A DNA stretch of 21,389 bases from a virus (IMGVR_UViG_3300037847_004750:1-21389); one strand, 5' to 3'. Shown: positions 3,487-21,389, numbered from the stretch's first letter. Numbers and translations: made by a program. The notes: a model not told the origin generated them from the sequence alone.

Positions 3487-4285
3487 GATCTCCAAAAAAG
3501 AAGAGTCTTACATAAAAGAAAATCTAGAAGCTGGACACGAAAAAATAGCAAAACAGCTAAACAGGGACTCAGATAGTGTCCTTGAGTTCATTCGTCGTAA
3601 AGTTGTTAGTGGTGATTTTAAAAATCCTTCGTGGCTAGACGCGCACGACCCAGAACGGCAAGCAGAATACGAATTAACAATACGTCCATACTGGAATGAG
3701 CTTAAAAAACAATTTACAGATGAAGAATTGCAGTTGTTTAAGTATCACTGGTCTAGAGTTGTGTCTCAATTCAAAGATGATGTGACACCCACAGAAGAAA
3801 TGCAAGTTGTTGACCTTATTAAATTAGAATTGTTGATGAATAGATCTCTTGAGGGTAACAAGACAAACATACAAGAGATATCAAGACTGGAAGTTATGCT
3901 AGAGGCTGAGAGATCGCACTCTAGAGAAGCTCAAGATGCTGACGCGATATTCAACATGGAAAGACAGGTGGCCTCTTACAAAGCCTCTCAGGAGTCTCTA
4001 AATAAAGATTACAGAGAGCTACAAACAAAGAAAAACTCTATGCTCAAAGAAATGAAGGCAACAAGAGAGCAAAGAGTCAAAAGATTAGAGGACAGCAAGC
4101 ATAATTTTACAAGTTGGCTTGCGCATCTAGCTACAAACCCAGAGTTAACAAGAGAATATGGACTAATGATGGAAAAAATGAGGATGTCGATGGAAAAAGA
4201 AAAAGAAAGACTGTCCGTTTTCCATAAATACACCGACGATTCCGTTGACCAACCGTTTTTAACTCCAGACACGGTGAAGGACTAA
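3464..4285 (+). CDS. Candidate terminase small subunit: HTH plus coiled coil, 273 aa
   Basis: Residues about 8-50 (RISKKEESYIKEN, then GHEKIAKQLNRDSDSVLEFI) look like a helix-turn-helix DNA-binding domain. A middle helical segment follows, then a long coiled coil (about 140-215) rich in E, R, K and L. A DNA-binding N-terminus plus an oligomerising coiled coil is what phage small terminases have, and the large terminase lies downstream at 8206. Assignment is by architecture and context only; a scaffold or replication factor remains possible. The ATG at 3464 overlaps the sigma gene; GGAG lies 13 bases upstream, a wide spacing. Confidence 0.45.
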   Translation: MDTLKKGRISKKEESYIKENLEAGHEKIAKQLNRDSDSVLEFIRRKVVSGDFKNPSWLDAHDPERQAEYELTIRPYWNELKKQFTDEELQLFKYHWSRVVSQFKDDVTPTEEMQVVDLIKLELLMNRSLEGNKTNIQEISRLEVMLEAERSHSREAQDADAIFNMERQVASYKASQESLNKDYRELQTKKNSMLKEMKATREQRVKRLEDSKHNFTSWLAHLATNPELTREYGLMMEKMRMSMEKEKERLSVFHKYTDDSVDQPFLTPDTVKD

Positions 4286-5043
4286 TGAAAAAAATAGGAA
4301 TAGCAATTGTAGCTACTAACGCATACTTTGTTCTTGGAATAAAGTTTATCAAAAGGTTTCATCATTTTTACAATGGTGAAGACCAAGTAAAATTCTTCTT
4401 TTTTTCTGATACAGACCCAAGTGACTACGTTCAAGACGAAATAGACATAGAGTACTACCACGACCAACATGCCGACTGGGTTGAAGGTACAAACTCTAAA
4501 TTTAAAAACATAATGAAATTAAAAAACGAAGACGTTGATTACATTTACTATCTGGACGCTGACACAAGTGTAAATTCCAGCTTTGATATGTCTAATTTGA
4601 TTGGCGATTTAGTCGGAGGCGAGCATTACGGAAATAGAGACTGGATGAAAGACTCAAAACCATTTGATAGAAATCCAGCCTCCAAAGCTTATGTACCTGA
4701 AGATACAGATTTACCACAGATGTATTACTACGGCGCTTTCTTTGGCGGAAAGAAAAATAAATTTATAGGATTATGTATGCTCCTCAGAGAGTGGCAGCTA
4801 GAAGATAGAAAGATACCCCACGAACCACCGTGGAATGACGAGAGCTACTTGAACAAGTATTTTCACTACAATGAGCCACATATTGTAAAAACAGAAATGT
4901 TTCCATTTTTGGTTAGTGACAAATCTGGAATAGGATACACAAGGAGCATGACTCTGGACACTTCACAGATAAAGGAACAATTAAGACAACATAAAAACAA
5001 ATTAATAAACATAAGTGGCGAAAAGGTTCTTGTCGATGAATAA
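4285..5043 (+). CDS. GT6-family-like glycosyltransferase, 252 aa
   Basis: The sequence matches family GT6, the family of ABO and alpha-1,3-galactosyltransferases. YYLDADTSV (D91-A-D93) is a metal-binding DxD; MYYYGAFFGG (146-155) matches the acceptor-binding loop; WNDESYLNKYF (183-193) matches the conserved WHDESHLNKY motif, with E186 as the likely catalytic residue. GT6 enzymes transfer Gal or GalNAc to a galactoside, keeping the anomeric configuration. There is no membrane anchor or stem, as in bacterial and cyanophage homologues, so it acts in the cytoplasm. The ATG overlaps the stop of the previous gene (TAATG). Donor and acceptor are not known; the virion or the host envelope are candidates. 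Confidence 0.85.
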   Translation: MKKIGIAIVATNAYFVLGIKFIKRFHHFYNGEDQVKFFFFSDTDPSDYVQDEIDIEYYHDQHADWVEGTNSKFKNIMKLKNEDVDYIYYLDADTSVNSSFDMSNLIGDLVGGEHYGNRDWMKDSKPFDRNPASKAYVPEDTDLPQMYYYGAFFGGKKNKFIGLCMLLREWQLEDRKIPHEPPWNDESYLNKYFHYNEPHIVKTEMFPFLVSDKSGIGYTRSMTLDTSQIKEQLRQHKNKLINISGEKVLVDE

Positions 5044-5644
5044 GTGTTCTGATTTAACTATATTCTACATAAACTCTGAAAGACCAGCGTTTAACGATAA
5101 AAGAATCCGAATGGAAGAAAAACTTACGGAGATAGGACTTTCATACGAAAGAGTACCAGTGCCAGAGCAAAACGGCAGAGCAACTGTAAATATAGTTTCG
5201 GGCGGACATAGACAAGCTGCACAACTTGCGATAGACACAAACAAGTTTCCACTTTTAATACTAGAAGATGACGCTGAACTTTTAGACGACTTTCCGTTTG
5301 ATCTAGAGTTAAATAAAGATGCTAAATTAATATACTTCGGTCTAAGCCTTCACAACGCAGGACAAGGAAGACTTGAATTAACAGACTACGACGATGATTA
5401 CTACAGAGTTAAGAATTCACTAGCTGCACACGCTATATTGATACCAACACGCGAGTCTGCCGAATATTATATAGACCTGTGTGATAGATCAATAGATATA
5501 ACCAACTGGCACGACAAGGAGCTAGCATACGACTCACAAAAAGAGTTATTTTTGACACCCAAGAAGGGTCCAGTGTTTTTTCAGACAGACGGGCATACTA
5601 GACCAGTAACAAATTTTGAATTGGATGAATTTATAATAGATTAA
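5036..5644 (+). CDS. GT25-like glycosyltransferase, 202 aa
   Basis: The start is taken as ATG 5036, which overlaps the previous stop by eight bases (ATGAATAA); a TTG further upstream adds seven residues. The N-terminus (TIFYINSERPAFNDKRI and RMEEKL) fits the GT25/LPS glycosyltransferase opening (INLxxxxxR). A GGHRQAAQLAI segment corresponds to the usual GCxxSH helix, and PLLILEDDAELL (72-83) is the hallmark LEDD metal/nucleotide site. GT25 members add sugars to lipooligosaccharide or collagen hydroxylysine. It is probably co-translated with the GT6 gene and acts on the same product. Specificity unknown. Confidence 0.75.
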   Translation: MNKCSDLTIFYINSERPAFNDKRIRMEEKLTEIGLSYERVPVPEQNGRATVNIVSGGHRQAAQLAIDTNKFPLLILEDDAELLDDFPFDLELNKDAKLIYFGLSLHNAGQGRLELTDYDDDYYRVKNSLAAHAILIPTRESAEYYIDLCDRSIDITNWHDKELAYDSQKELFLTPKKGPVFFQTDGHTRPVTNFELDEFIID

Positions 5645-5765: not shown

Positions 5766-6836
5766 ATGAAAAAAGCAATCATTTTTGGAATCACCGGACA
5801 AGACGGAAGCCATTTGGCAGAGCTACTTCTAGAAAAAGAATATCAAGTCGTGGGAGTTGCCAGAAGGGTTAGCGTAGATACTAAATCTAGGATACGCCAT
5901 ATTCTAGACAATGAAAATCTAACGATAGTAAGTGGAGACCTAACGGACGCACATTCTATAATAAATATTTTAAAAGACCACCAAGATGCCGCAGAAGTAT
6001 ATAACCTAGCTGCGCAAAGCCATGTTGCCGTTTCATTTAAACAACCCGCGCTGACTTGGGATATAACAGGTAAGGGATGTCTTAACATCTTACAAGGACT
6101 AGCTGACCTTGGAATGACAAACACTAGATTTTACCAAGCGAGTAGCAGTGAAATGTTTGGAAAGAATTATGACGTTGAAGTTGGCATGACCAGTGAAAGT
6201 AAATACCAAAACGAAGAAACAAAGTTCCTTCCTCAAAGTCCCTATGCGATATCTAAATGTGCCGCACACTATATGACTAGGCTTTACAGAGAAGGTTACG
6301 GACTACACGCTAGCGCAGGTATATTGTTTAACCACGAAGGCCCAAGACGTGGAGAAAACTTCGTTACTAGAAAAATAACTAAATGGATTGGTGATTTTGT
6401 TAAATGGTGTATCACTAATGATGTATCTCCAAAAAGACTATCTGACTTATCAACCAATGATGATGAAATATACATTACAAAAGAATTGAAATTTCCAAAA
6501 CTAAGACTTGGAAACCTTGATGCATACAGAGACTGGGGTTTTGCTGGGGACTACTGCGAAGCTATGTGGATGATGCTACAGCAGGATGAGCCAGATGACT
6601 ATGTGATTTGTACGGGAGAAACTCACACAGTAAGAGAATTTTTATCCATAGCCTTTAACTCTGTTGGAATACACGATTGGGAAGACCTTGTTGTTGTGGA
6701 CCCAGAGTTCTATAGACCAGCAGAAGTAGATTACCTAAGAGGCGATTGTTCAAAAGCCAAGGAAAAACTAGGCTGGACACCCAAGCACACTTTTGAAGAT
6801 CTTGTTAAGATGATGGTAATGAGCGATCTATCATGA
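5766..6836 (+). CDS. gmd: GDP-mannose 4,6-dehydratase, 356 aa
   Basis: Converts GDP-D-mannose to GDP-4-keto-6-deoxy-D-mannose, the precursor of GDP-fucose, rhamnose and perosamine donors. It is a short-chain dehydrogenase/reductase. GITGQDGSHL (8-17) is the NADP-binding glycine motif; SSSEMFG (126-132) and YAISK (Y160, K164) give the catalytic Ser/Thr, Glu, Tyr and Lys; RRGENFVTRKITKW and LGNLDAYRDWGFAGDY are family signatures. Between those two signatures it has roughly 25 extra residues (around 212-245) compared with the usual bacterial enzyme. AAGGAACTTTAGGA precedes the ATG. No fucose synthase is visible, so the final sugar may need another phage or host enzyme. Confidence 0.92.
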   Translation: MKKAIIFGITGQDGSHLAELLLEKEYQVVGVARRVSVDTKSRIRHILDNENLTIVSGDLTDAHSIINILKDHQDAAEVYNLAAQSHVAVSFKQPALTWDITGKGCLNILQGLADLGMTNTRFYQASSSEMFGKNYDVEVGMTSESKYQNEETKFLPQSPYAISKCAAHYMTRLYREGYGLHASAGILFNHEGPRRGENFVTRKITKWIGDFVKWCITNDVSPKRLSDLSTNDDEIYITKELKFPKLRLGNLDAYRDWGFAGDYCEAMWMMLQQDEPDDYVICTGETHTVREFLSIAFNSVGIHDWEDLVVVDPEFYRPAEVDYLRGDCSKAKEKLGWTPKHTFEDLVKMMVMSDLS

Positions 6837-15432: not shown

Positions 15433-15900
15433 ATGAGTACTGCTTTGTCGGACTATCTAGAGTCTGGTTTATTACATCACGTATTTAAAGGTCAGGTTTT
15501 TATAAAACCTAGCGAAATAGCCATTGCGCTTTGTAGTGGTGTGCCAGTAGATGCTGACACTGGCGAAACAATTCCTGAGCTTCCAAGCGGAATTAATGGT
15601 AGCGGGACTGGGTATGCTAGAATCTCACTTGGAGACCCTTCTACTGAAGGTAACACAAAATGGATTTTTGAACAAGAAGCTGCCGATTACGGTAGTGGAG
15701 TACTTAAAAATTCTGGGTCTATAGTATTTGAGAAAGCTCTTTTAGACTGGGGATTTGTTTCTGGTATAGCAATAACCGACGACTCTCAATTTGGATCTGG
15801 AAATCTTCTAATGCATTCAGAGTTAGCCAACCCAAGAATCATCTACAAAGGTGACGCTGTAAAGTTTGATGTAACAAATCTTAAAATTAAATTCAGCTAA
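15433..15900 (+). CDS. Small phage structural protein, 155 aa
   Basis: The N-terminus (ALSDYLESGLLHHVFKGQVF), the segment IAIALCSGVPVDADTGETIP, and GTGYARISLGDPS fit a widespread phage family of about 150 aa found next to capsid genes and usually annotated as tail-fibre-associated or structural. It has a beta-rich pattern: DWGFVSGIAITDDSQFGSGN near residue 110, then LLMHSELANPRIIYKGD. The likely role is in the virion, perhaps as an adaptor or fibre-tip protein. GGAATAGGAG precedes the ATG. It is the first gene of the transcript after the terminator and lies ten bases before the fibre gene. Confidence 0.65.
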   Translation: MSTALSDYLESGLLHHVFKGQVFIKPSEIAIALCSGVPVDADTGETIPELPSGINGSGTGYARISLGDPSTEGNTKWIFEQEAADYGSGVLKNSGSIVFEKALLDWGFVSGIAITDDSQFGSGNLLMHSELANPRIIYKGDAVKFDVTNLKIKFS

Positions 15901-15909
15901 GGTAGGGTC

Positions 15910-18900
15910 ATGGCAGAGTTCTCAGAAAATGATTTCATACTATCTTTAAATACTTTCTTACCAGACAATAGCACAGAACAAATATCTCCTAAAGATGTTA
16001 GAGATGTTTTCACAAATGCTGTAGACTCTACCCATAGATTTCTTGAGCTACACAGTATAAAAGCATTAAATATAGAATCTGCCTACCTAAGACAAACAAA
16101 GGTTGGGGAACTAGCCTTAGATAATTTAGATCTTCCTTATGAAAGCGGAGTTGACAATACTGCCGTTGGATACTCTTCAATGGGTGGTAATGTATATGGT
16201 AAACAGAATACCGCTCTAGGTTCTTATTCTCTTAGTTGTAATTTAGATGGAAATTATAACACAGCTATTGGTTTTTCGTCTGTAGTTGGAAATGTAGAGG
16301 GGCATGGAAACGTAGGTCTTGGTCTAAAAACTCTTTACGGCCTTAGAAATGGTGATTTCAATATAGCTATTGGTCATGGCGCTGGCTACTACGTAGGTAA
16401 ATCAGACAGTTATCAATTTTATTTAGGCTCTCATCCAGAGGCTTCTGGGGATTGTTGTCTTGATGGTTCTGGAACTCCGCTTCTTCGTGGAGATTTGCAA
16501 GAATTAAAACTTGCTGTTGGTACTAATGAGTTACATAACTACGGAACACTTCAAGTTTCTGGAGATATTTCTCCAACTGTAACTAGAACTTTTAACCTTG
16601 GTAACGACAATAGGGCTTGGAAGTCTATAAATGGTCAGCTTCAATTTCCACACTCTGATATTGTAAAGTCAACATCACATATTATACCGTGTTATGATGG
16701 ACTTGACCTTGGAACACCTGAACTAAGATGGGATGGATTTTTTAGAGATGTGCAGATTTATGGCGATTTGACAGTTAATGGAGAGACTGTTTGCCCCTCT
16801 GGTTCTGGTTTACAGAGGTTTGCTGAAGGTTTCTTTATCGAAGATGTAGATCCAGCAACTGATTTTTGTAATCCAACCTCTGGCTTGTTTAGAGAAAAAA
16901 GAACTTGCGAAGGTGTCTGCGAGGACGGCGACACTTTTTACGCTGTAAATAGAGACGCTTGTTTAACTATTTATAACGGCACGTATGCACAATTCGCTAA
17001 ACACGGTGAAGAATGGAGACCTATCTGGGTTAGCTGCTGCGCTACAAATCCGTTTTCAACGACTACGACTACTGCTGGTCCAACCACCACAACGACTTCT
17101 GCCCCAACAACTACGACAACTTCTGGCCCAACCACCACAACGACTTCTGGTCCAACCACCACAACGACTTCTGGTCCAACCACTACAACGACCACTGTAG
17201 CCCCAACAACCACTACTACAACAACCATTGCACCCTTTGGGTTTGCTGGTTGCGAAGCGCTTGACATACATCCATCCGCTGAACAAGTTGCGGCAACGGT
17301 TCCGTATACACCTGTTGGTTATGCGCATGAGTTCCCTAGTGGAGCTAAGTCGATCTTTATCAACACTTCATTCCAAGGTGATGCGGAAGATCCATCTATG
17401 GACCTTTTCTTAATGATGAAACAGAAGGGAAATTTCGCCAGAGAGCAGGAGATGGGGATTGGTATCACGCAGTGTGATATGGTTAGCGATAACCCCGACG
17501 CTAGCGGCTGGGGTAGCGGCTTCATGGCTCTTCAAACGGACGGTCAGCTTATCCCAAGTACAGCGCAGCTTGTGTCTGGCGTCTCACTTGCAAACTTTAA
17601 ATCTTTTGTTGACGATTTGAATTATGATACATGGCCTACCAATAGGACGGCTATGGGAGTTGACGGAACCCACAATAATAGCGGAGTTTTAATTCTAGGC
17701 TATCACGATAGATGCGGTCCGATGACAGAGTTAAGTGGTATTGTTGCTGCATCTGCTGATGTATTTTATAACTACATGAGATGTAATGGTGTTATTTGGG
17801 TAAGAGGCGCTCATACATCTGGTAACTGTTTAGACATTGACAACATGAACTTTATCCTTAAAGAGCTTTTGTGTGAGTCTAAATTCTCTGCTGATACTGA
17901 CATTCAACTTCAAGGTTCGTCTATATTACAAACAATAGACGATGAGTTTGGAACTCCTGACTCTATCAGGGTTAGCGGTTTTGATTTAGGTTATCCCGGC
18001 AGTCTTTCTGGAGGTTGCAAACTTTGCGTTCCAGATGCTTCTGGGTTCTACCTGTGGAACGAAGCGTTAGGTGTGGCTCAAGATTTGTTTGGTCAAGGCA
18101 TTAACTCAAGTGTTAATTCTGGAGATCCCTTCAGGGCGGGCGCTTTAAGTGGCAATGTCGTTGACCCAATATTTATTCATAGTGGAGTTAAAAATCCTTA
18201 TGTTTCACCTGCTGAAGATGTAGTAGGTCAGTACTACGGATCTGGTGTTTTCACTATGGTTCATGAGTACACAATGGCTAGCGGGTATGGTGGTGATGAA
18301 TGTCAATCCTTAGTTCCGTGGGGTTGTTGCGGTCATCCTGTCAGCCCCGGACCCGGACCTTGCGATCTTTCTATTGATAATACAGGCAAAATCTTGACAC
18401 ACACCTCGGCAAAATATGGTACAGTGCAATTGACGCTATGTCATTGCGCGTTGTTGCGATGGGGTGGAAGAACTCAGAGTGAGATAGATGCTATCCCAAT
18501 TAAATGTATAAGAGACGATGTGCAAAGCGCAAAGGACTACTACGAATTAAACTGTCCTTGTGGTACAACCACCACCACTACAGCTAACCCAACCACTACA
18601 ACAACGTTGGGGCCATTGGGTGCTTGCTGCCAACCAGATGGAGCGGGAGGGTTTGACTGCTTTGACAACCAATACGCCCAAAGCTGCGACATTGGTGGCT
18701 CAACATTCTACCCCGGACAAACATGTAGCGAAATTACTTGCGGCACGACTACTACTACTACTGCCGCACCAGATGCGTGTGAGATTACATGTGGTTGGGA
18801 ATACTCCACGTTTGGAGGCTGGAGTGTTACGGGAGCTAGCATACCTTGTCCATTCGACTGCGGTAGCTTTGAGAGTTGCGGTAGCTTAAATAACGCTGGG

Positions 18901-19017
18901 CAAGTTTCTGCATTGTATCAAGCTGCTCAAGGGGGCGCACCGAGGGATGGATCAAATATACAATTTAAGTATAATTGTGTTACCACTGCCTTTACATACA
19001 TTAGCCACACGCATTAA
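15910..19017 (+). CDS. Modular fibre-like protein with YadA-type repeats and Thr-rich linkers, 1035 aa
   Basis: The N-terminus (LNTFLPDNSTEQISPKDVRD) is common in phage tail and fibre proteins. Residues about 83-160 form five 17-residue units, each beginning N-T/V/I-A/G-V/L/I-G (NTAVG, NTALG, NTAIG, NVGLG, NIAIG), like the YadA adhesin head. Then follow a Cys-containing segment, a linker of nearly pure Thr with Gly/Ala-Pro (about 382-442), and a globular region (about 445-800) I do not recognise. A Cys-rich part is broken by two further Thr linkers (about 884-902 and 944-953) and includes GACCQPDGAGGFDCFDNQYA. A trimeric receptor-binding fibre or capsid fibre is likely. GGTAGGG precedes the ATG. 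Confidence 0.75.
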   Translation: MAEFSENDFILSLNTFLPDNSTEQISPKDVRDVFTNAVDSTHRFLELHSIKALNIESAYLRQTKVGELALDNLDLPYESGVDNTAVGYSSMGGNVYGKQNTALGSYSLSCNLDGNYNTAIGFSSVVGNVEGHGNVGLGLKTLYGLRNGDFNIAIGHGAGYYVGKSDSYQFYLGSHPEASGDCCLDGSGTPLLRGDLQELKLAVGTNELHNYGTLQVSGDISPTVTRTFNLGNDNRAWKSINGQLQFPHSDIVKSTSHIIPCYDGLDLGTPELRWDGFFRDVQIYGDLTVNGETVCPSGSGLQRFAEGFFIEDVDPATDFCNPTSGLFREKRTCEGVCEDGDTFYAVNRDACLTIYNGTYAQFAKHGEEWRPIWVSCCATNPFSTTTTTAGPTTTTTSAPTTTTTSGPTTTTTSGPTTTTTSGPTTTTTTVAPTTTTTTTIAPFGFAGCEALDIHPSAEQVAATVPYTPVGYAHEFPSGAKSIFINTSFQGDAEDPSMDLFLMMKQKGNFAREQEMGIGITQCDMVSDNPDASGWGSGFMALQTDGQLIPSTAQLVSGVSLANFKSFVDDLNYDTWPTNRTAMGVDGTHNNSGVLILGYHDRCGPMTELSGIVAASADVFYNYMRCNGVIWVRGAHTSGNCLDIDNMNFILKELLCESKFSADTDIQLQGSSILQTIDDEFGTPDSIRVSGFDLGYPGSLSGGCKLCVPDASGFYLWNEALGVAQDLFGQGINSSVNSGDPFRAGALSGNVVDPIFIHSGVKNPYVSPAEDVVGQYYGSGVFTMVHEYTMASGYGGDECQSLVPWGCCGHPVSPGPGPCDLSIDNTGKILTHTSAKYGTVQLTLCHCALLRWGGRTQSEIDAIPIKCIRDDVQSAKDYYELNCPCGTTTTTTANPTTTTTLGPLGACCQPDGAGGFDCFDNQYAQSCDIGGSTFYPGQTCSEITCGTTTTTTAAPDACEITCGWEYSTFGGWSVTGASIPCPFDCGSFESCGSLNNAGQVSALYQAAQGGAPRDGSNIQFKYNCVTTAFTYISHTH
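17077..17196 (+). repeat. 24-bp tandem repeat coding for the Thr linker (5 units)
   Basis: Five adjacent 24-bp units (17077, 17101, 17125, 17149, 17173) each encode G/A-P-T-T-T-T-T-S or a close variant. The first and fourth units are identical over 24 bases; the others differ by a few. ACG, ACC, ACA and ACT are all used for Thr. Such arrays can expand or contract by slippage or recombination, so linker length may vary among related phages. Confidence 0.9.
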
Positions 19018-19093
19018 TACGTAATCTACTACATGCATAACAATGGACGACATTAAATCAGGAACTTAGAAATTAACTTAGGAAAGGGAATTA

Positions 19094-20143
19094 ATGAGGA
19101 AAATAACCATAGGAATGGCACACCATTCGGACTTTCATGGAACTTACTTTAGTATTCAGGATATTATTAAAGAATTAAGATTTAACAAAAGAGAGGATTT
19201 ATTAGATAGACTTGAATTTGTAGTTATTGAAAACGCAAAAGAAAACGCACACGCTCAAGCTGTTAAAAGCCTTCAGGGTGGCACTGGCCTTGGCGATAAA
19301 TTTAGAGTCATAGATTTTCCAGACTCTCAAGGTACATCTTCCACAAGAAACAAGATTATTGAAGAAGCAAGAACTGATTTTGTACTTGTTATGGATTGCC
19401 ATGTATTGCTATGCCCAGTTGTACAAGCCCTAGAAAAATTATTTCAGTTTATAGATAAATACCCAAATACAATGCACTTGTATCAAGGTCCACTTGTCTA
19501 TGATAATTTAAGAATGATCTCTACACACTTCAATGATGAGTGGGGAGGTCAAATGTGGGGAAGGTGGGGTAGCGCTTGGACTTGCAAATGCAAACAGAAA
19601 AACTTTAGCGTTATTAATGATAATAATACTTGTAAAATAGTAGGTTTAGAAAAACAGAATCATATGTCGCATTGCGACCATTGCTACACTATTTTTCCGC
19701 AAGAATTAGCATACTCAGGTCATGAGAGTATACTTGAAAAACTTGGATTTACAAGGCTTGGGTTTGATCCAGATGAAAATGAGTTTGAAATTTTTGCACA
19801 AGGACTTGGTTTGTTTTTTACTTCCAAAAGATCTTGGCTTGGTTTTAATGAACACTGTAGAGGGTTTGGTGGTGAAGAATGTTATATACATGAGAAGTAC
19901 AGGAAGGCTGGTAGGAAAGCACTATGTTTACCATTTTTAAAGTGGTTGCACAGGTTTTCTAGACCAGACGGTGTTAAATACGAATTGACTATTGATAACA
20001 AAGTTAGAAATTATGTATTAGAGTTTACAGAATTAGATCTAGACTTATCACCTGTATATAAAGAATTTGTAGAAGACGCTAAATTTGATGAAAGTAAATA
20101 TAATCAGTTTTTAGAAGAAGCAAAAACAATTTACGGAAAGTGA
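19094..20143 (+). CDS. GT-A glycosyltransferase with DxH motif and Cys/His insertion, 349 aa
   Basis: The fold signals are GT2/GT27-like: SSTRNKIIEEARTDFVLVMD leads into DCH (D101-C-H103). DxH is the metal site of polypeptide GalNAc-transferases, whereas most GT2 enzymes have DxD. Near the C-terminus, CRGFGGEECYIHEKYRKAG and then LPFLKWLHRFSRPDG resemble the GT27 pattern WGGENxExSFR...CGG...P...GH, which carries acceptor-side residues. Between them sits a Cys/His cluster (C164, C166, C180, H193, C194, C197) that may bind zinc. The gene lies between two Thr-linker proteins and ends one base before the second. I infer that it starts O-glycans on those linkers; a plain GT2 on host glycans is the alternative. 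GGAAAGGGA precedes the ATG. Confidence 0.75.
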   Translation: MRKITIGMAHHSDFHGTYFSIQDIIKELRFNKREDLLDRLEFVVIENAKENAHAQAVKSLQGGTGLGDKFRVIDFPDSQGTSSTRNKIIEEARTDFVLVMDCHVLLCPVVQALEKLFQFIDKYPNTMHLYQGPLVYDNLRMISTHFNDEWGGQMWGRWGSAWTCKCKQKNFSVINDNNTCKIVGLEKQNHMSHCDHCYTIFPQELAYSGHESILEKLGFTRLGFDPDENEFEIFAQGLGLFFTSKRSWLGFNEHCRGFGGEECYIHEKYRKAGRKALCLPFLKWLHRFSRPDGVKYELTIDNKVRNYVLEFTELDLDLSPVYKEFVEDAKFDESKYNQFLEEAKTIYGK

Positions 20144-20144
20144 T

Positions 20145-21389
20145 ATGGGTAGAGGTACACAGTGTTATTATTGTTGTCCAACAACAACCACAACTGCTGG
20201 TCCAACAACAACGACGTTGTTTCCACCAACAACGCCACCACCGCCAACAACAACGCTGCCACCGCCAACAACAACGCTACCGCCACCCTGTGTTGGAGAT
20301 CCGGGTGACTTGCAGTGTAGATATGAATACACTGGGGTTGTTTGGCAAAAAGTTTGGGAAGTAGACAGATGCTTTAACAGAGAGTGTAGCTGTCCAGCAA
20401 CTCAGACAATTCGCAATGAATGGAATAGCCGACATTCTTCAGATCCTTTTGAGGGAGCGTGCGCTGACGTTTATGGAAACTGCTGTGAACCTTTTTGTTT
20501 CGATTATAGTATTACTTTCAATCAAACTTGCCCAACTACAACAACTACCACAGAAGGCCCAACAACAACAACTTCAACCACTGATCCACCTGAAGAGCCA
20601 TTTTTCGTAGTTGTTTGTCTTGAACCACGGCCTTGTCCTAATTGCCCTGAAAAAACACAGCAAACTAGAAGGTGTGTCAATTTTCCAAATAAAGACCAAG
20701 CAAACGCTTATTCTAGAGACCTTCTAAACATGGGTTTGGTTCCAATTCAAGGTCCGGGTACTTGCGCTGATGTCACCAATTTTCAATGTCCGTCGTGTGA
20801 TTCGGACGGCCCATGTAATACTACCACAACAACCACGCAGGCTCCCACAACTACGACAACGACTTCTGGACCAACAAGCACAACTACAAGCACAACGTCC
20901 AGCCCAACTACAACAACTACAGAAGCTCCAGATGGTATTATCTGCTGTTGTTACGACGATACCACTCCTTATACCTTAATAAGCTGCACAGAAACTAACA
21001 CAGCAGGCTGTAATGCTAACAGTGCGATTCCGGGACAAAAATGTAAAGGTCATGTAAAGGGTTCAAGTAAACCGGGAGGAGGAATCGGAGATATTTTCAA
21101 TAGTTGCTTAGACTGTGCAGACTCAGATCCTCCAACCAGTACGACTACTACAACTGCCGCCCCTCTACTTGGGTGTTGCCGTGTTTGTGATGATTGTTGT
21201 GGCGCTGGTACATTCACTCATGATGTACTGGAAGAGGAATGTGACGGAGATTGGAGTGCTGATTGTTTCATTACTGCTCTTCTAATACCTTGCTGTGCTA
21301 CAGATCAGTGTCCCGATGTCAATTGCGTTGATTGCGTGCGTCCTGACCCTGATAAGGATATTAATCCCGGAGGCGGCGGTGGCGGCGGT
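20145..21389 (+). CDS. Cys-rich modular protein with Thr/Pro linkers (partial, over 415 aa)
   Basis: ATG at 20145 follows GGAAAG and starts one base after the stop of the glycosyltransferase. The frame stays open to the end of the window, so the 3' end is missing. Of 415 residues about 41 are Cys. Cys-rich modules (for example QCYYCCP, GNCCEPFCFDY, CCRVCDDCCGAGT) alternate with Thr/Pro linkers at roughly 12-47, 126-142, 222-258 and 323-331. The visible end is Gly-only after DKDINP. The linkers match those of the 1035-aa fibre. A virion surface or fibre protein is likely; I recognise no enzyme domain. Disulphides could form in the virion after release. Confidence 0.8.
   Translation, partial: MGRGTQCYYCCPTTTTTAGPTTTTLFPPTTPPPPTTTLPPPTTTLPPPCVGDPGDLQCRYEYTGVVWQKVWEVDRCFNRECSCPATQTIRNEWNSRHSSDPFEGACADVYGNCCEPFCFDYSITFNQTCPTTTTTTEGPTTTTSTTDPPEEPFFVVVCLEPRPCPNCPEKTQQTRRCVNFPNKDQANAYSRDLLNMGLVPIQGPGTCADVTNFQCPSCDSDGPCNTTTTTTQAPTTTTTTSGPTSTTTSTTSSPTTTTTEAPDGIICCCYDDTTPYTLISCTETNTAGCNANSAIPGQKCKGHVKGSSKPGGGIGDIFNSCLDCADSDPPTSTTTTTAAPLLGCCRVCDDCCGAGTFTHDVLEEECDGDWSADCFITALLIPCCATDQCPDVNCVDCVRPDPDKDINPGGGGGGG
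20238..20279 (+). repeat. 21-bp tandem repeat coding for Pro/Thr linker (2 units)
   Basis: Two adjacent 21-bp units (20238-20258 and 20259-20279) differ at one base and encode P-P-P-T-T-T-L. They are a Pro-rich variant of the Thr linkers. Confidence 0.75.

Follow-up and report, generated by a model that had tools for sequence, protein, structure and literature searches.

What is the function of a glycosyltransferase whose gene is enclosed between two genes for threonine-rich virion-type proteins? The question is raised by IMGVR_UViG_3300037847_004750, a complete IMG/VR record that represents a fragment of an uncultured marine phage and that is considered here over its whole length of 21,389 nucleotides (the window). 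The initial annotation of this DNA proposed a mucin-like O-glycosylation of virion proteins. In our analysis the enzyme, of 349 amino acids (aa), is probably a phage polypeptide O-glycosyltransferase with a GT-A fold, resembling glycosyltransferase family 27 (GT27), that would sugar-coat the threonine/proline (Thr/Pro) linkers of the neighbouring virion proteins.

The presumed acceptors are rich in Thr. The two virion-type proteins with Thr/Pro linkers are found at the coordinates proposed initially, and their Thr content is well above that of shuffled sequences. Specifically, the peak Thr fraction over 30 residues is 0.70 in the product of 15910-19017 and 0.63 in that of 20145-21389, while 200 shuffles of the same proteins peak at 0.47; in random viral DNA, sampled with an arbitrary 14-mer, only 2 of 972 open reading frames (ORFs) show a Thr fraction of at least 0.5 over 30 residues. 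The first protein contains ten runs of at least four Thr and a main linker of 60 residues (STTTTTAGPTTTTTSAPTTTTTSGP...); with its N-terminal part it matches PHROG families of virion structural protein (E 2.3e-15) and tail spike (E 1.9e-12), and the NTAxG repeats were assigned as YadA-like by eye. Its gene comes after the major capsid gene and the gp80-like gene, and homologues of the second protein come after the same enzyme in three other loci (L003, L005 and L006). All four Thr codons are mixed within the runs of both proteins (in the first, 13 ACA, 19 ACT, 14 ACC and 9 ACG), so that the runs are a feature of the protein level and an origin as DNA microsatellite is ruled out. Cysteine (Cys)-rich modules of about 40-60 residues (GACCQPDG...CSEITC type), with the appearance of a repeated disulfide-type domain, are present in the C-terminal part of the first protein and in the second, and are connected by the Thr linkers.

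The enzyme encoded between them carries the DxH metal motif and the GGEE...H block that had been indicated by the initial annotation. The alignment of 36 members, which reaches down to about 39% identity, leaves D101, C102, H103, G259, G260, E261, E262, H266, K268, R270 and H286 invariant, and the score against Pfam Glycos_transf_2 is 36.2 bits, above the curated cut-off of 23.3. The GGEE block (FGGEE in the enzyme) would be the counterpart of WGGEN in GT27, and the spacing between E261 and H286 may be the same as that between E334 and H359 of GALNT2. When the AlphaFold model of the enzyme (predicted local distance difference test, pLDDT, 93) is compared over residues 1-349 with the PDB, the top 29 entries are all polypeptide N-acetylgalactosamine (GalNAc)-transferases of animals or Toxoplasma (Z 23.2-19.5), with 250-273 residues aligned at a root-mean-square deviation (rmsd) of about 3 and a best match at Z 23.2, rmsd 2.9 and 261 residues. 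In other words, GT27 is the nearest solved fold over the whole enzyme chain, and it shares with the enzyme the DxH motif and the presumed Thr acceptor, and possibly the GGE block with a His 25 residues further on. The differences are also clear: identity is about 13%, the enzyme has GGEE where GT27 has GGEN, many of its members possess a CxC...CxxC insertion, and it belongs to a bacterial virus. A C-terminal ricin-type lectin domain is found in most GT27 members, whereas Pfam detects none in the 349-aa enzyme, and the GT27 match is limited to the catalytic part of each chain.

The next structural families are GlfT2 (Z 18.3) and the chondroitin polymerase K4CP (Z 17.5), that is, enzymes building polysaccharides on a common fold, and many phage glycosyltransferases act on host surfaces. 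The enzyme could consequently modify host surface glycans or lipid-linked sugars, as in superinfection exclusion or serotype conversion, with an incidental placement in the structural operon; however, GT27 ranks above both families, and the position directly beside virion-type genes is conserved over wide divergence, making this role highly improbable. Hardly any weight is given to a glycosylation of phage DNA. Phage DNA glycosyltransferases are known, as cited in PMC12619734, but the closest fold here is that of protein O-glycosyltransferases, the gene lies beside fibre-type genes and, apparently, no other DNA-modification gene is recognisable among the window ORFs scanned.

If the neighbouring proteins are the substrates, enzyme and Thr-rich gene are expected together elsewhere. 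Fifty relatives of the enzyme were found in IMG/VR, and none among 50,697 phage records. Each ORF was scored by its highest Thr fraction within 30 residues, with thresholds of 0.5 and 0.4, and the homologues were grouped at 90% identity into 48 viral clusters: a Thr-rich ORF adjoins the enzyme in 34 of these at the lower threshold and in 31 at the higher, and inspection adds Thr-rich stretches in two further clusters (L033 and L051). Across 45 representative loci, Thr-rich ORFs account for 28 of the 87 adjacent to the enzyme and for 4 of the 432 non-adjacent, all four of the latter being two genes away (raw Fisher p for adjacency 7e-20, uncorrected for relatedness). The co-occurrence expected by the initial annotation is thereby observed far above background. 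Moreover, the relatives belong to at least two main phage backbones, and the pairing is found in separate ones. In the second backbone the enzyme is longer by a C-terminal domain; this domain matches Methyltransf_24, with E 2.6e-7 in L049 and with lower significance in L037 and L253.

A number of results weigh against the proposed function. On a tree of 49 members the Thr-neighbour trait is clustered, with at least 6-7 changes; relatives are not independent samples, and the raw p for this reason overstates the pairing. Twelve of the 48 clusters, among them a compact marine group (L289-L301 and L309) and several from the window's own capsid clade, lack a Thr-rich neighbour. Among 80 loci anchored on the capsid gene, the 26 that bear the enzyme show a Thr-rich gene in 15 cases and none in 11, so that the enzyme is also retained without Thr runs and a strict rule by which enzyme implies Thr linker has to be discarded. 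In the reverse direction, 120 loci were picked solely because they carry eight Thr codons in a row, and 54 of them contain a genuine Thr-rich ORF; just one of the 54 carries an enzyme of the 349-aa type, partial and at the end of the locus. Bacterial homologues exist, within multi-domain proteins, and no UDP-GalNAc supply gene was identified. Finally, a profile of the 36 sequences searched against all PDB sequences retrieves weak GT2-type matches only and no GT27 chain at E <= 1. Since CAZy families are defined by sequence, the enzyme is not a member of GT27 in that sense; judging from its model, it is predicted to work like a GT27 catalytic domain. Accordingly, the likeness to GT27 put forward by the initial annotation holds for the fold and not for the sequence profile. 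The two patterns that the same annotation had regarded as contrary to its proposal are also found in part: Thr-rich proteins largely occur without this transferase, with 13 of the 120 loci carrying a different one, phrog_4417, instead, and the transferase occurs without Thr linkers in about a quarter of its homologues.

Some related observations concern the distribution of the enzyme. L289, L296, L309 and their relatives form a compact marine branch of the GT27-like family, with proteins of 283 aa and no Thr-rich neighbours. Three capsid-anchored loci lacking the enzyme are long enough to judge, and Thr-rich genes are present in none; at locus L229 a Thr-rich fibre gene stands without enzyme, a case that is not decisive because the contig ends 1.4 kb later. 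The same core is encoded by bacterial genomes (L353-L377; Labrys, Desulfobulbaceae, Bradyrhizobium and others), mostly in proteins of 400-1100 aa that often have about 320 residues ahead of it. Contigs of Thermogutta and Chloroflexota carry the enzyme with a Thr-rich neighbour and genes common to the second phage backbone, and Chthoniobacter carries the enzyme (L356, L357 and L349); these are possibly prophages or misbinned phage contigs.

The enzyme may instead glycosylate a different part of the virion proteins encoded beside it, such as Ser/Thr within their fibre or Cys-rich domains, the Thr linkers being flexible spacers of a kind common in aquatic phage fibres. This would account for the homologues that adjoin virion-region proteins devoid of Thr runs, and for the frequency of Thr-rich proteins in loci without a 349-aa-type enzyme. 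Nevertheless, Thr-rich genes are concentrated beside the enzyme in its loci and are rare in random viral DNA, and an unrelated glycosyltransferase displays the same neighbour preference; we consequently hold this alternative to be unlikely and retain the Thr/Pro linkers as the probable acceptors.

This second glycosyltransferase emerged from the neighbours of the 54 Thr-rich ORFs: ten of these adjoining genes are members of one family, PHROG 4417, annotated as of unknown function. The family has an invariant DxD, mostly in the form HDxD, and its model (pLDDT 95) adopts a GT-A fold of GT8-like type, closest to glycogenin (Z 15.2), LgtC (14.1) and the Skp1 galactosyltransferase (13.8). It is unrelated in sequence to the 349-aa enzyme and belongs to a different GT-A subfamily; what the two have in common is a glycosyltransferase-type model encoded directly beside a Thr-rich virion-type protein, upstream of phrog_4417 in Enterococcus phiFL1A (gp51), LP65 (orf49) and VPE25 ('prophage pi2 protein 34'). 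The family is present in the 13 Thr-selected loci mentioned above, whereas none of 965 random viral ORFs belongs to it. In a search for phrog_4417 itself, a Thr-rich ORF is adjacent in 53 of 80 metagenomic loci, a sample biased toward near relatives of the query. Since the search of cultured phages found no member of the first enzyme family, phrog_4417 offers the practical route to testing. It occurs in 74 records of cultured phages. Of the 17 examined, nearly all place it beside a Thr-rich stretch, and 13 have immediately upstream a protein that is rich in Thr when read in the annotated frame. Often this is a major tail or capsid protein with Thr concentrated at its C-terminus, as in the major tail protein of phiFL1A (NGTTTTTSTTTTTTSSTTTTTTTQASSK), the major capsid protein of 4995_1 and the protein at the same position in R3.3. 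In bIL285 a short Thr6 lies past the capsid stop, and LP65 orf51, two genes upstream, has a Thr-containing C-terminus and is a structural protein that, according to its annotation, was observed by mass spectrometry.

In other cultured phages poly-Thr is encoded in an overlapping frame. In the Enterococcus phages Planchet (L583:2235-2330), 9183 (L594:1770-1860) and VPE25 (L587:1720-1810), a poly-Thr stretch in another frame overlaps the end of the major capsid gene, just ahead of phrog_4417. The overlap contains CCCAAAA, a candidate -1 slippery heptamer, in Planchet and 9183 and not in VPE25; slippage at this site would add a Thr-rich tail to the capsid protein of the first two. The major tail protein of Staphylococcus phage SA2 ends at a Thr run followed by CCC TAA, and the overlapping +1 frame encodes a long poly-Thr (L585:1623-2436), an arrangement that suggests a +1 frameshift adding a Thr-rich tail; gene order is similar in L582 and L592. 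Fusions were also noted: at L163:297-2291 a phrog_4417 glycosyltransferase joined to a radical-SAM/SPASM domain adjoins a Thr-rich protein, and in L052 a methyltransferase-like tail, recognised by eye, takes the place of that domain.

Taken across phages of many hosts, these loci incline us to a broader proposal, held with somewhat less assurance than the function of the window enzyme. That is, fibre, tail-tube or major capsid proteins would bear poly-Thr as a tail or linker, to be served by a dedicated peptide O-glycosyltransferase encoded directly beside them, and at least two unrelated families, the GT27-like one and the GT8-like phrog_4417, would have converged on this strategy, some of their members being fused to methyltransferase-like or radical-SAM domains. 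The strategy would be in use in cultured Enterococcus, Lactobacillus, Lactococcus and Staphylococcus phages, and it would have been overlooked because the enzymes are annotated as 'hypothetical'.

As for the chemistry, the enzyme would bind a nucleotide sugar and a metal ion via D101, H103 and probably H286. Sugars would be placed on the Thr of the Thr/Pro linkers in the virion proteins encoded next to it; this would happen in the host cytoplasm, while the virion is being assembled or earlier, and the product would be a stiff, protease-resistant, sugar-coated fibre. The C-terminal methyltransferase-like domain of many relatives suggests that in these the added sugar may then be O-methylated.

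Upstream in the window, on the same strand, lie a GT6-like gene and a GDP-mannose 4,6-dehydratase (GMD) gene, whose identities, proposed by the initial annotation, are confirmed by Pfam, together with a GT25-like gene. For the latter the proposed assignment is backed by a blastp match of 49 residues (E 0.005) to Che8 gp110, a GT25-family protein by Pfam, and receives no support from Pfam, NCBIfam or PDB. It had been suggested that these genes act jointly with the 349-aa enzyme, which would amount to one pathway that furnishes the linkers with an extended glycan of mucin-like type. The common strand, the GMD-like genes found in larger records of the window's clade and the GT25-family gp110 in the reported virion-glycosylation locus of Che8 are in keeping with this idea. 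On the other hand, GT6, whose nearest solved relatives are Bacteroides BoGT6a and the ABO-type enzymes, occurs in no more than 2 of the 27 related records and is rejected as a conserved part of the system, and GMD-like genes, present in 10 of 16 related records, include two from records without a 349-aa-type enzyme in the stretch read. Furthermore, GMD produces a GDP-sugar, whereas GT27 transfers from UDP-GalNAc to Ser/Thr of a polypeptide. A single pathway is consequently very unlikely; GMD may supply a GDP-sugar to the phage, its link to the 349-aa enzyme being unproven. The features of the window are collected in Table 1.

Table 1. Features of the window and the matches or remarks attached to them
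Feature	Position	Strand	Match or remark
IMGVR_UViG_3300037847_004750	1-21389		complete IMG/VR record; fragment of uncultured marine phage
GT6 glycosyltransferase	4285-5043	+	PF03414, E 3e-16, 59.6 bits (cut-off 25); not placed in the system
GT25-like gene, weak assignment	5015-5644	+	phrog_24091, unknown function
GDP-mannose 4,6-dehydratase	5766-6836	+	PF16363, E 2.5e-112; best solved relatives are GMDs
gp80-like gene	15433-15900	+	PF23140, E 2.5e-22
Virion fibre-type protein, 1035 aa, predicted acceptor	15910-19017	+	N-terminal YadA-head-like repeats and Thr/Pro linkers
Main Thr/Pro linker, residues 383-442 of fibre-type protein	17056-17235	+	30-residue Thr fraction 0.70
Second Thr-rich linker, residues 886-899	18565-18606	+	Thr runs of 6 and 5
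Third Thr run, residues 946-951	18745-18762	+	
GT27-like glycosyltransferase, 349 aa, predicted polypeptide O-glycosyltransferase	19094-20143	+	Pfam Glycos_transf_2, E 7e-9
D101-C-H103 metal motif (DxH)	19394-19402	+	invariant in 36 homologues
G259-G-E-E262 motif	19868-19879	+	invariant in 36 homologues
H286, candidate third metal ligand	19949-19951	+	25 residues past E261; invariant in 36 homologues
Second Thr-linker protein, Cys-rich, 415 aa, predicted acceptor	20145-21389 (cut by contig end)	+	eight runs of at least four Thr
Thr/Pro linker 1 of second protein	20178-20216	+	
Thr/Pro linker 2 of second protein	20532-20582	+	
Thr/Pro linker 3 of second protein, residues 226-262	20820-20930	+	
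Thr/Pro linker 4 of second protein	21129-21164	+	

The full order of genes on the + strand is GT6, GT25-like gene, GMD, ClpP-type gene, terminase, portal, cement, major capsid protein, gp80-like gene, long fibre-type protein, glycosyltransferase and second Thr-rich protein, the names ClpP, portal and capsid being given from gene position and from the sequence by eye. The first 2.2 kb or so (1-2250) have a convincing ORF on neither strand, a single perfect sigma-70-like site on the - strand (1283-1256) and five terminator-like sites where 1.9 are expected. An Rfam scan of the window returned no matches.

For virion glycosylation in mycobacteriophages, PMC12363180 and PMC12619734 cite Freeman et al. 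2023. The Che8 locus resembles the present system in that a glycosyltransferase is encoded in the same phage genome and gp108, a glycosyltransferase-methyltransferase fusion, has an architecture similar to that of the distant relatives of the window enzyme; by contrast, gp108-110 match neither the 349-aa-enzyme nor the phrog_4417 profile, and the Che8 glycosyltransferase genes are not adjacent to the acceptor gene but are located at the opposite end of the genome. Published papers describe glycosylation of capsid and tail-tube proteins, at their C-termini, in mycobacteriophages Che8, Corndog and Myrna (PMC12363180, PMC12619734). The Che8 capsid and tail proteins contain no Thr runs, and their C-termini were dismissed as a poly-Thr precedent. 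The polypeptide N-acetylglucosamine (GlcNAc)-transferases of GT60 (PF11397) are a further family of protein O-glycosyltransferases, and one PF11397 protein adjoins a Thr-rich gene in the control set; the window enzyme, in contrast, has no PF11397 match. A search of the open-licence literature found no link between poly-Thr phage proteins and glycosylation. With respect to the mycobacteriophage systems, both enzyme types and the poly-Thr acceptors appear to be new.

In the literature surveyed, phage virion glycosylation has been demonstrated for a few mycobacteriophages only. If poly-Thr is the acceptor and the neighbouring gene its glycosyltransferase, virion glycosylation would become predictable from sequence in many phages and testable in cultured ones, GT27-like peptide O-glycosylation chemistry would extend to bacterial viruses, and a function would be assigned to PHROG 4417. 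The recurring pairing of enzyme and Thr-rich protein in unrelated phages points to a widespread, as yet unproven, sugar-coating of phage particles, which would have a bearing on phage stability, on adsorption and on the recognition of phages by the immune system.

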